A stretch of 64,000 nt of DNA from Bacteriovorax sp. Seq25_V (GTDB lineage Bacteria; Bdellovibrionota; Bacteriovoracia; Bacteriovoracales; Bacteriovoracaceae), in NCBI RefSeq assembly GCF_000447795.1, contig NZ_AUNI01000019.1:186001-250000 (forward strand). Reading direction: 5' to 3'. Positions within the stretch are counted from its first letter, which is position 1, and each line of letters begins with the position of its first letter. The notes under the pieces were generated by a model. That model saw only the letters and a list, made by a program, of their open reading frames with translations, did not search any database and had not been told where the DNA came from. A program made the translations under genes and the position numbers. This document shows, piece by piece, positions 54,341 to 61,621 of the stretch.

Positions 54341-54658
54341 TTATTCTTCTAGCGATTCAGTAACTGCTGCCCTAAGAACTTCTAAATCACTTAGGTTTTC
54401 ATATTCTTGACTCTCTAAACGCAGCTTACCAACTAAATCTTCTAGCTCTGGCGAAAGATTTGAATCATCATTTAAAACCAATACCTCGAGCATTTCTTTT
54501 TGAACCTCAGGTGAAACTTTATGCTTTTTGCAAATCCCACCAGATAAAGAAAATGTGGTTAACATTAGTGGTGTTATAGTTGCTTCTCGTGAAATTTCAT
54601 TTGCGGTAACAAAAGAAGGCGCTAGCGCAACTAAGCTAAGTAATAATAATTTTTTCAT
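54341..54658 (-). CDS. small exported acidic protein
   Basis: The 105-residue product has a signal peptide (1-19, cleavage after VTA). The mature protein is acidic and helical (SPEVQKEMLEVLVLNDDSNLSPELEDLVGKL) with one Cys. No family is recognised. GGAG precedes the start, which overlaps the stop of the DUF4105-type gene by 4 bp, so it is coupled to it and could be its partner or inhibitor (inference). Confidence 0.65.
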   Translation of the reverse strand: MKKLLLLSLVALAPSFVTANEISREATITPLMLTTFSLSGGICKKHKVSPEVQKEMLEVLVLNDDSNLSPELEDLVGKLRLESQEYENLSDLEVLRAAVTESLEE

Positions 54659-56367
54659 CTGTGGCTCCTTTGATAGTTTTTAAGCATATTTATAATTGTT
54701 GAATGATTTTGTTTTGTTTTATCTAGTTCATCTTTAGCATTAACGGCCTCAATTGACTTTGGCTCCTGTTGTAATGCAATCTCATACAATTCCTGTATTT
54801 CATCAAGTCCTAGCGCAGGTCTCTCGTTTAGGCTCGAATCAATTTTTTTAATACCATATCCTCGCCGTTTATCTCTCCTATCTGAAAATGTGACAGTTTC
54901 TAGATCAACTGATAAATCATTACGCTTTGTTAAGATATTAAAATAGTCTTGAGAAGCCTTAAGTAGGGCTATGTTTTCGGCCAATAGAAGAATGAACAAC
55001 TCATTTTCTTTTTTCGCATTGATAATAAATTCTTCCCTGTCTTGTGCTTTTAGTGCAATGTAGTTCTTTGCTTCCATTCTGATTCCAAGCTTACGAAGTC
55101 CTTTTGAAAGCACTGTATCACCACTGATATGTGTTATATTACGTTTGTCAATTCTCCCAAACTTGAGGAGAAACTCTGTTATCCCCTTTGGTGTATCGAT
55201 ATTTTGAGCATAAATATTTTTGTCATCGAATGCGTACTTGAAAAGTCTCAGAAGCTCAGATGAACAATTATTTGTAATAAATTTATAATTTCCCTGATAC
55301 TCCCAAAAGTTTTCCAAAAGAAATCTTAACAACCTTGTCTTTTCTGTTCTGTTCAATTTTAAAGGATACTCGGTGATATCTCTAAGTTCGATTACATTAT
55401 ACTGAATTTTTGTAAGTGCGTAGTCTGTTCCTCGAAGCTTTGATTGATACTTTCCTGTTAGGCCAGAGTACAAAGAATAAGTACTCCCTGCAATATCTGC
55501 GACAAAGCTAAATGTGTACTTATTTGTTTTTGAGCAATTATTATTTGAGCAAAGCTCTAATAATAATTGCGCGTGTCCAAAACTTGAAGCTATGTCATCA
55601 CCTTCCCCTGAGAATAGATACGAGACCCCCTTAACATTGTCAGGAGAAATATTTATTGTCTCCAAACCTCGTGAAGTTGGTATTGTAATTTCCTCAGAAT
55701 AGCACTTATATTTTCTCTCTCTACCCTCTTCTAAAACTCTAGAAAAAAAGTCAAACTTACTGGGGCGGTGACAGGCGTATTGTTCATCTAAAAAATAGAA
55801 TTCAAAATTTACAGCAAAATTTTCTTTTATATTCTCATGTTCGTATATATCAGGAGAACGAGATGAATTTTTGTTAAGGAGAGTAATCTTCTCGACATCT
55901 AAAATTCTCTTTTTTGACTTGTGTTTTATATTTCTTTTCTCTGCATATGCTAAAGTGACATATTCGTCCATGGAGCTTACACGAAACTTTAAATCATAGA
56001 CATGTGCTAATTCATGAACCAGTGTTGAGGTAAGCAGGTGTTCCCTATCTGTATAACGACAGTTCTCAAAACTCTCCTTTGGTAAGGAAAAAATATTTGA
56101 ATTTATATATACAATCCCTTTTTTTGTCATACCAAAAACAGTTGATACATTAGTATTTTTGCAGAAGTTATGACTTATTGGAGCTAGTGGTTTCGAGACT
56201 ATTTTTGTATTACTCTCTCTAAGATAATTACTCATCTTACTAGGCAGTCTCTCTATTATATCACCAGCAATCTGTGATAAGTAAATATCATTCTGTCCTG
56301 AAGCGGATACAAATTGAGCAAAATAAATAGTTATAAGTACTGGCAATAAATAAAATCTCATATTCAA
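54655..56367 (-). CDS. exported DUF4105/Lnb-type protein with an added zincin-like domain
   Basis: The 570-residue product has a signal peptide (1-22). The N-terminal domain has STLVHELAHVYD (His118, Glu119, His122), an HExxH zinc motif, with ENFAVNFEFY downstream as a possible third-ligand segment. The middle has LFSGEGDDIASSFGHAQLLLELC and later YKFITNNCSSELLRLFKYAF, the paired GH and NC motifs of DUF4105, the Lnb N-terminal periplasmic domain with a papain-like Cys/His site. Linking a metallopeptidase-like and a Cys-hydrolase-like domain in one exported protein is unusual. A helical tail completes it. Confidence 0.72.
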   Translation of the reverse strand: MNMRFYLLPVLITIYFAQFVSASGQNDIYLSQIAGDIIERLPSKMSNYLRESNTKIVSKPLAPISHNFCKNTNVSTVFGMTKKGIVYINSNIFSLPKESFENCRYTDREHLLTSTLVHELAHVYDLKFRVSSMDEYVTLAYAEKRNIKHKSKKRILDVEKITLLNKNSSRSPDIYEHENIKENFAVNFEFYFLDEQYACHRPSKFDFFSRVLEEGRERKYKCYSEEITIPTSRGLETINISPDNVKGVSYLFSGEGDDIASSFGHAQLLLELCSNNNCSKTNKYTFSFVADIAGSTYSLYSGLTGKYQSKLRGTDYALTKIQYNVIELRDITEYPLKLNRTEKTRLLRFLLENFWEYQGNYKFITNNCSSELLRLFKYAFDDKNIYAQNIDTPKGITEFLLKFGRIDKRNITHISGDTVLSKGLRKLGIRMEAKNYIALKAQDREEFIINAKKENELFILLLAENIALLKASQDYFNILTKRNDLSVDLETVTFSDRRDKRRGYGIKKIDSSLNERPALGLDEIQELYEIALQQEPKSIEAVNAKDELDKTKQNHSTIINMLKNYQRSHR

Positions 56368-58094: not shown

Positions 58095-58382
58095 ATGAAA
58101 AATTTAGTAAAATCTTTAATTCTAGCGTTCGTTATTTCAAATGCTTATGCTACAGTACTTGAAAATTGCATTATTGATGCACAGGAAATTTGTCAGGAAC
58201 TTAGAGGAACAGACTTTCAAAAGTGTTTCAATGAAATGTTAAATCAGTGCTTAGACGATAGAAACTATTTAATCGATGGGGTTGCTACGGAAGAAGATAG
58301 AGTTAGCGCTTGCTATGATAAGTGCAGTAACTACACTGAGCCAACAATGAGACATATTTGTTATAACGAGTGTAAGAAATAA
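58095..58382 (+). CDS. small exported Cys-rich protein
   Basis: The 95-residue product is read from ATG 58095, which has GGGAG at 5-6 nt; an ATG at 58083 sits before that site. It has a signal peptide (1-20, cleavage after AYA) and nine Cys: ENCIIDAQEICQELR, KCFNEMLNQCLDD, ACYDKCSNY and HICYNECKK. The CxxxC pairs suggest an alpha-helical disulphide-hairpin protein. No family is recognised. A perfect terminator follows. Confidence 0.68.
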   Translation: MKNLVKSLILAFVISNAYATVLENCIIDAQEICQELRGTDFQKCFNEMLNQCLDDRNYLIDGVATEEDRVSACYDKCSNYTEPTMRHICYNECKK

Positions 58383-58412: not shown

Positions 58413-58739
58413 CTAATCCCATTTAGAGAAAAGCAAAATTGCCTGATGTGGCTCGGCCATTTGAGATGCCATAACCTGGTAGATACCCTCTTCCCCATGA
58501 TAAACGCACATTAAAGAAGATCCAATAGAAGTTTGAATAATCTTAGATTCATTAACTCTTTTGATTTTTAGTTCTGAACAATTTCCTTCAATCATCGCGT
58601 CTTTAATGAAATTGGCACAAGATTCATTCCACTTGGATGGATAATCAATCCATTTCTTTGAATAAGTTATTTCTTCACAATTATTCGCAAAAATCGATGC
58701 ACTTAGAATCAATACAGCGACCATTCTTTTTAAAATCAT
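58413..58739 (-). CDS. small exported protein, last gene of a regulator-led operon
   Basis: The 108-residue product has a signal peptide (1-18, cleavage after IFA). The mature part has Cys in NNCEEITY, ESCANFIKDAMIEGNCSELK and SLMCVYHGEE, likely two disulphides. No family is recognised. It lies 9 nt after the zinc-protease gene. Confidence 0.65.
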   Translation of the reverse strand: MILKRMVAVLILSASIFANNCEEITYSKKWIDYPSKWNESCANFIKDAMIEGNCSELKIKRVNESKIIQTSIGSSLMCVYHGEEGIYQVMASQMAEPHQAILLFSKWD

Positions 58740-58748
58740 ATCTATCTC

Positions 58749-59486
58749 CTATTCTCTATATTTTCCGTTTTCTTCACCACCGGGAAACCAACACTCAGGG
58801 CGTTCTAGCCCTAATATTCCGTTAATCATTGTATCCAGACGACACTGGGATTCAGGATAATAACTCGGTGATGTATTCAAATTTAATTGGATATGTGTAG
58901 AGAAAATATCAAAGCTAACTAAATCGCCAAGATTTTTAAAGTAGGAGATATCGCTTTCGAGGGCAAACATCATACGCTCACACTCTCCTATCTCATAACT
59001 CCCCTGCTTCTCACAAAGCTTTGTGTAGACATCTTTTGCTACATATGCAGTTTTTGAAGTTAAGAAATTTAGTGCTAATGGAAGACACTTTGCAGTCGCA
59101 AAATAATCCGATTGTCCCTCGGTGGAACTTCCAGAATCCTTATGAGGCGTCCCTCCAATACCATGTCCCATTTCGTGGCAGCCAGTAACCAGAAGGCCCT
59201 CAGGCGTCATATCTGCAAGCCTTACAAAACCACCCATGAGATATAAATTATGCTCAACAATGCCGTCCATTTCGACCTTTACATACGAAGCGTGAACCAT
59301 ATCGATGTCCCACCAGTACGTCTCGGAGAGTCCAGGAATCGGCTTGTTAATCTTTAATGTATCAGTAGGATTTTCTTTAAGGATTTCAAAGGTCTTGAAA
59401 AGGGCCTGTTTAACATCTTGAAGCTCAAGATAGCTCACACTAGCAAAAGTATTAAAAACAAATGTAAGTGCGAGCAGTATTTTCAT
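58749..59486 (-). CDS. exported zinc metalloprotease-like protein
   Basis: The 245-residue product has a signal peptide (1-16). The zinc motif is GCHEMGHGIGGTPH (His104, Glu105, His108), followed by SSTEGQSDYFATAKCL. There Glu or Asp can be the third ligand (gluzincin-like HExxH...E). Six further Cys suggest an extracellular fold. It starts 2 nt after the Ca2+-motif protein gene. The HExxHGxGGxxH stretch and the E-G-Q-x-D-Y motif give good support for a peptidase fold, but the family is not assigned. Confidence 0.78.
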   Translation of the reverse strand: MKILLALTFVFNTFASVSYLELQDVKQALFKTFEILKENPTDTLKINKPIPGLSETYWWDIDMVHASYVKVEMDGIVEHNLYLMGGFVRLADMTPEGLLVTGCHEMGHGIGGTPHKDSGSSTEGQSDYFATAKCLPLALNFLTSKTAYVAKDVYTKLCEKQGSYEIGECERMMFALESDISYFKNLGDLVSFDIFSTHIQLNLNTSPSYYPESQCRLDTMINGILGLERPECWFPGGEENGKYRE

Positions 59487-59488
59487 TC

Positions 59489-60040
59489 TTAGTTTTCGCA
59501 GTAAGGGATTACGTAGTCTTTATCAAAAAGTTCTTTTTCAACTTTTCTATCATTGTCACGACCACCTCTACTTTCGACTATATATTTTATCTTTACGTTC
59601 TTTACCGTAGTTTGATTAACTGTAATCGGAACCCTCTTGCAATTCTTATCGTGATTATTGCAAACCTCTCGCCATGATTCATACACAAGGGGATATCTGT
59701 CGTACTCATAACCAACTATTACATTTGTATAACCATCACGATCTCCATCATTATCAAGATGACGAGATACTCTACGCCTTTCATATTGTGGACGTTTTTC
59801 AATTGTTCTAAATTCATCACCATCAATACACACCTGGAAAGCACTATTTGGATAACCAGTAAAGACATAATCACCACTGATTTGTAGATTCCAATTTTTC
59901 TTAACAGCATCTCTTACTTGAGTCCAAGATGAATCTGGTCCAATTCCGATCTTACCTTTTCCTGGTTTTGATCCGCCTGAAATTCCACCCGTTCCACCGA
60001 GAGCTAAAATAGATACCAATAAAGTTACTAGTAATTTCAT
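59489..60040 (-). CDS. exported protein with DxDGDxDG Ca2+-type loop, copy A
   Basis: The 183-residue product has a signal peptide (about 1-18) and a Gly/Lys-rich linker. The core is: SSWTQVRDAVKKNW, VFTGYPNSAFQVCIDGDEFRT, RHLDNDGDRDGYTNV (calcium-loop type), YPLVYESWREVCNNHDKNCKRVP, and DKDYVIPYCEN. The whole core is paralogous to the gene at 60954. The conserved Cys (four in each copy) probably form disulphides. Function unknown. It sits 3 nt after the regulator gene. Confidence 0.75.
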   Translation of the reverse strand: MKLLVTLLVSILALGGTGGISGGSKPGKGKIGIGPDSSWTQVRDAVKKNWNLQISGDYVFTGYPNSAFQVCIDGDEFRTIEKRPQYERRRVSRHLDNDGDRDGYTNVIVGYEYDRYPLVYESWREVCNNHDKNCKRVPITVNQTTVKNVKIKYIVESRGGRDNDRKVEKELFDKDYVIPYCEN

Positions 60041-60043
60041 TTC

Positions 60044-60814
60044 TTATTTTTCCTGTAAAGTATCTGTAACCGCAAAGGTAAATGCTCTTTTGAGCCCTTT
60101 TGCGCCTTCCTTGTTTGCTAATTCTACTTTTTCTCTAAATGCGCGTTCATCAATTTTTAACCACTGATCATAGGCCTCATCACTTAGGCCCTCAGCGTAG
60201 AAAGCAATAAGATTATTGCCAAACTCTTCTGCATTTTGAGGTTTACTATATTTCTCAATCAGAGAAAGTCCAATGCGCTTTAGTGTCTTTGCACTAAAAT
60301 TCGCCTGATTTTCCCCGACTGTATACTGCCCATTGCTAAGTCTCTTAAGCGCCTTCATCTCAATCATACGCTCAAGTGTAATCATTCCACTCATTCCATA
60401 ACGATACTGAATCAGCTCATTCGTTATTGGAGAACACGACGCTAGAAAATAAATCTCAGCAAATGTTTTGTCATAGTAAATTTCAGACTCAATATTTTGA
60501 AGATAAGAAATATTCTGTGAATTTTTGTTTGGATTTACTTTGCTAATTTCTTCTCTTACAACGGCCGGGACTAACTCCATTAAGAGAGAGTCATTTGTTG
60601 TTTCAAAAATCGCGCGATATAATTTATAGAGTGTTTGATATGTAGGCTTGTTCTCCTTCCCTAGTAAGCGGTATAGAGTTCGCTCACTCACTTCCATCTT
60701 TGCCGACAAAAGTCTAATCCCAATCTTGACGCTCTTGTACTCACTGACTTTCGCATTTAAGTCAGAGGCCACTTGGTCCATAAGATTTAAGGGGTGGTGA
60801 TTATCTATCTTCAT
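60044..60814 (-). CDS. helix-turn-helix regulator heading a secretome operon
   Basis: The 256-residue soluble protein has a predicted helix-turn-helix near residues 30-60 (IGIRLLSAKMEVSERTLYRLLGKENKPTYQTLYKLYRA), similar to XRE/phage-repressor types. A helical C-terminal domain contains a second winged-helix-like element (LIQYRYGMSGMITLERMIEMKALKRLSNGQYTV). The layout resembles the TIGR02147/DUF4423 regulators common in this bacterial group. There is no ribosome-binding site. The first gene of the operon, it lies 17 bp from a 14-bp inverted repeat, which suggests autoregulation. Confidence 0.7.
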   Translation of the reverse strand: MKIDNHHPLNLMDQVASDLNAKVSEYKSVKIGIRLLSAKMEVSERTLYRLLGKENKPTYQTLYKLYRAIFETTNDSLLMELVPAVVREEISKVNPNKNSQNISYLQNIESEIYYDKTFAEIYFLASCSPITNELIQYRYGMSGMITLERMIEMKALKRLSNGQYTVGENQANFSAKTLKRIGLSLIEKYSKPQNAEEFGNNLIAFYAEGLSDEAYDQWLKIDERAFREKVELANKEGAKGLKRAFTFAVTDTLQEK

Positions 60815-60830
60815 GATGGTCGCTTATAGC

Positions 60831-60879
60831 ATAGATAGTGAAAACGTTCTAAGTTAATTGAATTATTTTCACTATCTAT
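60831..60879. promoter_or_regulatory. 14-bp perfect inverted repeat, candidate operator
   Basis: ATAGATAGTGAAAA (60831-60844) and TTTTCACTATCTAT (60866-60879) are exact inverted copies 21 bp apart. They lie in front of the regulator gene and downstream of the paralogue at 60954. The spacing would fit a dimer pair or a promoter-spanning operator. Confidence 0.7.
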
Positions 60880-60908: not shown

Positions 60909-60938
60909 GTGTGTAAGTATTTTGGGGCACTTACACAC
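60909..60938. terminator. hairpin after the Ca2+-motif paralogue
   Basis: A perfect 10-bp stem GTGTGTAAGT/ACTTACACAC with a 10-nt loop. The minus-strand tail (TCTCCC) is not T-rich, so it may act as an RNA 3' stabiliser as much as a terminator. Confidence 0.5.
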
Positions 60939-60953
60939 CTTTGGAATCAATAA

Positions 60954-61454
60954 TTAGTTACAAGCTGGGATTACGTATGTTTTTGTAAAAAGAGCTTTGT
61001 AAACATCGTCACGATCGTGTCCACCTCTTCTAACAACTTTAGAAACTGTGAAGTCTTTTTCTAGATCTTGGTGAACTGTATATGGAACTCTTCTACAGTT
61101 CTTGTCTCTGTTGTTACATACTTCTTTGTATGAAGTGTAAACGATTGGGTAAGTAAGGAATTCTTCACCAACTTTTACACTTGTCCAACCATCTCTTTCA
61201 CCATCATTGTCACGGTGTCTTGGAACTCTAACTGTTTTGTAAACTGGGAATTTTCTTGTCGTTGTAAAGTTGTCACCATCAATACATACGTCAAATGCAG
61301 AAATTGGTTGACCAACAAATACTGGTCCGTAGTTCATAGTAAGGTTAACATCAGCTTTTACAGCTGCTTTAATTTCTTCCCATGAAGAGTTTTCGTTGAT
61401 TGCAAAAGTAGATACAGAAAGTAATGCTGCAGCTAAAGCGATAATTTTTTTCAT
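60954..61454 (-). CDS. exported protein with DxDGDxDG-type loop, copy B
   Basis: The 166-residue paralogue of the gene at 59489 has a signal peptide (1-18, cleavage after TFA). It shares the same ordered motifs: SSWEEIKAAVKAD, VFVGQPISAFDVCIDGDNFTT, RHRDNDGERDGWTSV, YPIVYTSYKEVCNNRDKNCRRVP and TKTYVIPACN. A strong GGAGG ribosome-binding site and biased codons suggest high expression. It lacks the Gly-rich linker of copy A. Function unknown; probably a secreted, disulphide-bonded, Ca2+-binding protein. Confidence 0.78.
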   Translation of the reverse strand: MKKIIALAAALLSVSTFAINENSSWEEIKAAVKADVNLTMNYGPVFVGQPISAFDVCIDGDNFTTTRKFPVYKTVRVPRHRDNDGERDGWTSVKVGEEFLTYPIVYTSYKEVCNNRDKNCRRVPYTVHQDLEKDFTVSKVVRRGGHDRDDVYKALFTKTYVIPACN

Positions 61455-61621
61455 AAAGCCTCCGGTTTATTATGTGTTAAAAACACTGTTCAATTTGTTT
61501 GGTGAGACAGTTCTAAACAACGTGATACGGAAGCGCAAAAAATTGAAACCTTTCAATATTCTTTTTAAGACATTGTCACAGATTTTGTGAATTTCGATGA
61601 CATCGGGTACTTTTGTGTCAG

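Follow-up and report, generated by a model that had tools for sequence, protein, structure and literature searches.

The locus contains a three-gene cassette, A-R-B, in which a gene for a putative DNA-binding regulator (R) lies between genes for two paralogous exported proteins (A and B). By comparison of gene neighbourhoods the conserved unit is A-R-B, and the longer arrangement R-B-Z-S, which includes two further genes for exported proteins (Z and S), is not a conserved operon. On balance it appears probable that A-R-B forms a family-wide cassette in which R controls A via a two-part operator and B acts as a partner of A, Z and S having been appended. The genes are located as follows within the window, the whole 64 kb stretch of DNA that was analysed.

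60954–61454, minus strand: A, exported protein of 166 aa, paralogous to B but lacking its Gly-rich stretch, predicted abundant (from identity, codon adaptation and synteny)
60044–60814, minus strand: R, 256 aa, N-terminal Cro/C1-type HTH at about residues 9–88 and a winged-helix-like second domain at about 105–190
59489–60040, minus strand: B, 183-aa exported paralogue of A, 3-nt gap to R, with a Gly-rich mature N-terminus and an all-beta Cys domain
58749–59486, minus strand: Z, 245 aa, exported predicted zincin, Cys-rich, with HEMGH and EGQSD (residues invariant in homologues)
58413–58739, minus strand: S, small exported Cys protein of 108 aa, lineage-specific passenger

The A-R-B cassette across Bacteriovoracaceae

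The open reading frames, which are mechanical gene calls, place R, B, Z and S in tandem on the minus strand with gaps of 3 nt (R-B), 2 nt (B-Z) and 9 nt (Z-S), and B, Z and S begin with N-termini resembling signal peptides. The first-pass annotation had described four minus-strand genes 2–9 nt apart and a regulator linked to exported cysteine proteins, both of which hold; its gene list ended one gene short, since A, the paralogue of B, belongs to the unit.

Close homologues of R were found in Bacteriovorax sp. BSW11_IV and in Bacteriovoracaceae MAGs by searching with a five-row R alignment, and a profile of 21 R proteins (mean column identity 46%) detected R in 54 of 129 genomes of the family. 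A total of 59 R loci were read, and the 50 with E < 1e-30 (51 including the window) were taken into the promoter analysis. The A-R-B cassette is found at about 50 loci in the family, and its order is retained with diverged sequence in G003, G007, G015, G020 and G097. A member of the A/B family lies directly behind R at 48 loci. The gene in this position encodes an exported protein of about 105–200 aa, usually overlaps R or begins within 10–15 nt of it, and nearly always has, following its signal peptide, a segment rich in Gly (GGIAGG, GDSAGG, GGDYGGGP). The gene preceding R, whether codirectional or divergent, in most cases encodes an exported protein of the A/B superfamily that lacks this segment. 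The genes after B vary between loci. The distance matrices of R and B are correlated (Mantel r 0.76, reached by 0 of 2000 permutations, none of which exceeded 0.18), a correlation to which shared descent contributes. More distant relatives, R', align with R over 247 columns in a profile comparison (99.6%), and most of them retain an exported gene that overlaps the end of the regulator.

Several variants of the arrangement were observed. A tandem duplication in G003 (C3:593489-598411, L089) contains two R and six A/B-type genes within 5 kb, including two copies of A with identical match scores. At L174, L175, L177, L178 and L181 the distant R relatives lie behind an exported 'GSGCP' protein of 253–299 aa and their ends are overlapped by an exported 'TGAG' protein of about 110–120 aa. 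At L176, L179 and L180 the overlapping exported proteins are upstream and have GGEGSGSG-type stretches.

Exported proteins A and B

The alignment of A with B gave 52% identity. Both are predicted to contain an all-beta domain with near-invariant cysteines, which in B is predicted at pLDDT > 90, and the mature N-terminus of B has the Gly-rich sequence GTGGISGG. No structural match to the B model was found in the PDB with Foldseek or VIA-align, a result that does not in itself prove a new fold. The DNDGDRDG segment of B, originally read as a Ca2+ motif, is located in a variable hairpin and is missing from many homologues.

Codon adaptation was calculated relative to the ribosomal, EF-G and RNA polymerase genes of the window genome, whose codon table was also used for the relatives. 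The value for A was 0.844, the first of 51 window ORFs, compared with 0.534 for B, 0.455 for R, 0.434 for Z and 0.579 for S; a second A of the same genome gave 0.832. Medians over the relatives were 0.708 for A, 0.512 for B, 0.487 for R and 0.493 for other genes (A versus B, p 5e-13). From this contrast A is predicted to be an abundant major product, and B and R minor products.

A two-part site upstream of A

Comparison of the regions upstream of A revealed a two-part site consisting of GACA-N10-15-TGTC followed, after about 20–41 nt, by GACA-N1-2-TGTC. The site spans 61569–61619 in the window and lies 98–172 bp before A across relatives. The two halves, identified by their conservation upstream of A, are as follows.

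61569–61577, minus strand: candidate operator, proximal (compact) half, GACAATGTC, -123 to -115 from the A start codon
61599–61619, minus strand: candidate operator, distal (extended) half, GACACAAAAGTACCCGATGTC

Within 41 A upstream regions the hexamers ATGTCC, CGGACA, CATGTC and TGGACA were enriched at a fixed distance with z-scores of 9–13, although these scores and the associated p-values are optimistic because the loci are related and not independent, and the motif was first noticed in the very loci tested. The proximal half starts 98–143 bp and the distal half mostly 141–172 bp before the start codon. The exact pattern with an A/T spacer occurs a single time in the window genome. In 577 kb of retrieved DNA the exact pattern occurs 12 times, nearly always next to R cassettes, and in 125 genomes the two spacer forms gave 13 and 17 matches, 30 in total, with 11 of these (5 and 6) at R cassettes that account for well under 0.01% of the DNA. 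It is only this location that stands out, as the 13 matches of the A/T-spacer form are no excess over the approximately 14 of a reversed-pattern control, and away from R cassettes the rate of the pattern resembles that of the control. The exact site is absent from about half of the A upstream regions, chiefly those of the more distant cassettes.

Nine cassettes, found in genus g44, G038 and G020, have a structured, approximately 190-nt stretch in place of A behind the GACA/TGTC site. This stretch contains no plausible ORF and ends in a GGTGGCA...TGCCACC stem, and a tRNA gene adjoins it in most of the cassettes. It is absent from Rfam, and a covariance model of this candidate small RNA detected copies in 10 of 125 genomes, and the one copy outside the model-building set, the tenth, again has the site in front. 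The candidate loci are L100, L146, L147, L149, L150, L151, L152, L101 and L105, all in R upstream regions, and L347.

In G049 a small RNA that is near neither of the two R genes is preceded by the site. In G015 an exact site lies before a lone A-type gene; the contig also carries an R, some 57 kb away, that has no such site. The presence of sites at a lone A-type gene and at a small RNA with R located elsewhere suggests that R acts on the two-part site in trans.

The inverted repeat and the promoter of R

The region between A and R contains the following elements, of which only the -10 box is assigned to a strand.

60866–60879: inverted-repeat arm 1, exact match
60831–60844: inverted-repeat arm 2, abutting the probable -10 box of R
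60824–60831, minus strand: probable extended -10 of the R promoter, TGCTATAA, from GCTATA enrichment before R genes
60909–60938: 10-bp stem-loop between A and R, 3' of A, GTGTGTAAGT / ACTTACACAC, from the sequence

The perfect 14-bp inverted repeat reported upstream of R (ATAGATAGTGAAAA / TTTTCACTATCTAT, arms 21 nt apart) was confirmed as exact, and is the sole perfect 14-bp repeat with a gap of ≤40 nt in the window, where first-order shuffles give an expectation of 0.075. No further exact copy of the arm was found in the 3.45 Mb genome. Elsewhere in the 125 genomes the arm occurs 21 times; one of these copies, in G027, lies 30 bp upstream of a distant R, at the same place as in the window. 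A scan of viral contigs gave 79 scattered matches to the arm. A conserved 14-bp operator was ruled out, because the repeat as such is absent from syntenic relatives and its arm is scattered across other genomes. The core of the repeat, GTGAAA/TTTCAC, is nevertheless over-represented before R genes, at 17 of 51 loci against 4.9 expected.

Among hexamers, GCTATA shows the highest enrichment before R genes, and the position of one repeat arm directly against TGCTATAA is consistent with an extended -10 box. The enrichment of the core and the position of the repeat make autoregulation of R through the 14-bp repeat possible. An RNA hairpin formed by the repeat in the R leader was also considered; use of TGCTATAA would make it unlikely, because the transcript would then start downstream of the repeat. 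Stem-loops similar to that between A and R occupy the same position in several relatives.

The abutment on the extended -10 box is a repressor-like position, and this, the frequency of the core before R genes and the fact that Cro/C1-type HTH domains often repress would fit a negative-feedback loop in which R represses A, and itself via the 14-bp repeat, until a signal, for example the export of A or B, releases it. This arrangement is conceivable but rather unlikely, as the two-part operator does not cover the A promoter region but lies farther upstream (-98 to -172 from the ATG), and syntenic relatives do not keep the 14-bp repeat as such. A site upstream of the promoter region together with a target predicted to be strongly expressed favours activation, and R is probably an activator of A.

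The regulator R and related regulators

The N-terminus of R is a Cro/C1-type HTH domain (HTH_3), as 10 of 21 R members match this family with a best E of 9.2e-6. The description of R as an HTH regulator is thus supported at the level of the family, while the window member alone falls below significance. The predicted structure of R had a pLDDT of 77 and a low full-model pTM of 0.41; structural matches to its HTH were obtained at residues 7–89 (Z ~7), and winged-helix-like matches to a second domain at residues 97–202 (VIA Z 7–9.6). R resembles Cro/C1 (XRE, HTH_3) systems in its N-terminal HTH fold, a palindromic operator near the gene and a local cassette. It differs from them in its second, winged-helix-like domain, in the exported A-paralogue joined to it, in its putative two-part operator, and in having lone putative targets elsewhere in the genome.

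The TIGR02147/DUF4423 regulators of the same genomes are similar to R in having an HTH and a C-terminal domain of similar length, and some have an exported gene right behind them. Membership of R in this group was rejected, since no match was obtained at E ≤ 1 for the window R, nor among the families listed for the 21 members; full-length homology to TIGR02147 was likewise rejected, as a profile comparison aligned only 55 HTH columns with a probability of 27%.

One TIGR02147-type regulator (L210 / L224, G020:C111) is located beside a GACA/TGTC site, in a layout like that of A-R-B with a divergent exported 110-aa gene and an exported 144-aa gene overlapping the regulator end. R may therefore not be the sole reader of the site. 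If another regulator, for example of the TIGR02147 type, were the actual reader, R would be merely a neighbour; the same site in the G020 cassette would be explained, but its occurrence at R cassettes is far above chance and the genomes with lone sites do have R, which makes this decidedly improbable. Recognition of the site by R itself remains the preferred reading.

Z and S

Z has homologues in 68 of 97 genomes. In 38 sequences HExxH, EGQxD and several cysteines are invariant, including H104, E105, H108, E123 and D127, and E123 is the putative third ligand, so that the designation of Z as a zincin stands on the basis of sequence. Proteolytic activity of Z is putative; no relative of Z was found in Pfam, NCBIfam or the PDB.

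The close homologues of Z in G001, G003, G007, G014, G015, G019 and G053, and those of S in G001, G004, G005 and G014, stand alone in unrelated places. The four-gene order R-B-Z-S, initially taken for a self-contained operon, was not kept in the relatives in which gene order was compared, Z and S being located elsewhere in every one, an outcome that the first-pass annotation had itself named as a refutation. The four-gene operon is thus a local addition to a conserved core, with Z and S, judged from these neighbourhoods, as lineage-specific passengers of the R-B transcript. The tight spacing on a common strand and the export of all three downstream products make co-expression here likely, and would suit a module of regulator, Ca2+ protein, protease and small Cys protein acting together. 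Such a module is nevertheless very unlikely given that Z and S stand alone in relatives, the genes after B differ by locus and the Ca2+-like loop is not conserved. Nothing at the locus indicates the secretion machine implied by the earlier term 'secretion module'; the products appear as cargo with Sec-type signals.

Two further genes for exported proteins were observed in the window, one of 570 aa that contains an Lnb_N domain and matches DUF7844 (54655–56367), and a small Cys-rich protein without a family match (58095–58382, plus strand).

Proposed mechanism and comparison with known systems

In the proposed mechanism R would be a cytoplasmic two-domain DNA-binding protein that recognises the two-part operator upstream of A and sets the expression of A, a predicted highly expressed exported beta-protein with conserved cysteines, by activation rather than repression. 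The 14-bp repeat would serve the promoter of R itself. B would be made at a low level with R, exported, and act on or with A outside the cytoplasm as an anchor, assembly partner or level sensor; its fold, which is the same as that of A, its flexible Gly-rich N-terminus and its fixed linkage to R make it the natural choice for such a role. Z and S would have joined the R-B transcript solely in this lineage.

An extension of this mechanism would make R the founding member of a class of exported-protein switch that is restricted to this lineage and has not been described before, in which the state of A feeds back on the A promoter via the co-made B and the same switch drives the approximately 190-nt small RNA in sister genera. 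This extension is put forward tentatively and is itself doubtful.

The earlier statement that no known system fits the locus was upheld for the libraries searched. No family was found for A, B, Z, S or full-length R in Pfam, NCBIfam, PADLOC, PHROGs or PDB sequence searches, the PADLOC models for anti-phage defence gave only weak matches at the level of chance, and no publication on the cassette was found in the literature searched for TIGR02147, DUF4423 and Bacteriovorax regulators. A phage origin, examined with B, and a plasmid origin, examined with R, were both unsupported.

In curli, CsgA is the major subunit, CsgB the nucleator and CsgD the regulator. The major/minor pair of curli is, by analogy only, the nearest parallel for A and B, as both systems combine an abundant exported protein (predicted in the case of A) with a low-level homologue and a dedicated regulator; no sequence relation is claimed, and the A-R-B loci gave no evidence of a secretion pore or fibre. 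In RRNPP cassettes (ComR, AimR) a gene for an exported product also follows an HTH regulator, often with start/stop overlap in the case of R-B, and one R member touches the AimR model (E 9e-4), but a receptor-pheromone pair in which R would bind a re-imported peptide processed from exported B is most improbable, since B is a predicted folded domain of 105–200 aa with conserved cysteines and not a short precursor, the C-terminal part of R in a model of low pTM (0.41) looks more like winged helices than TPR repeats, and the hosts are Gram-negative.

If R controls A through the two-part operator, these relatives of predatory bacteria would gain a defined regulon marked by a DNA site that can be read. 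The cassette brings with it a predicted abundant exported protein family, A, that is unnamed in any library searched, and a linkage of B to R that calls for a functional explanation. The two-part site may be used to find further targets from sequence alone, and that it can work as a predictor is indicated by the small-RNA copy from outside the covariance model, which again carries it.
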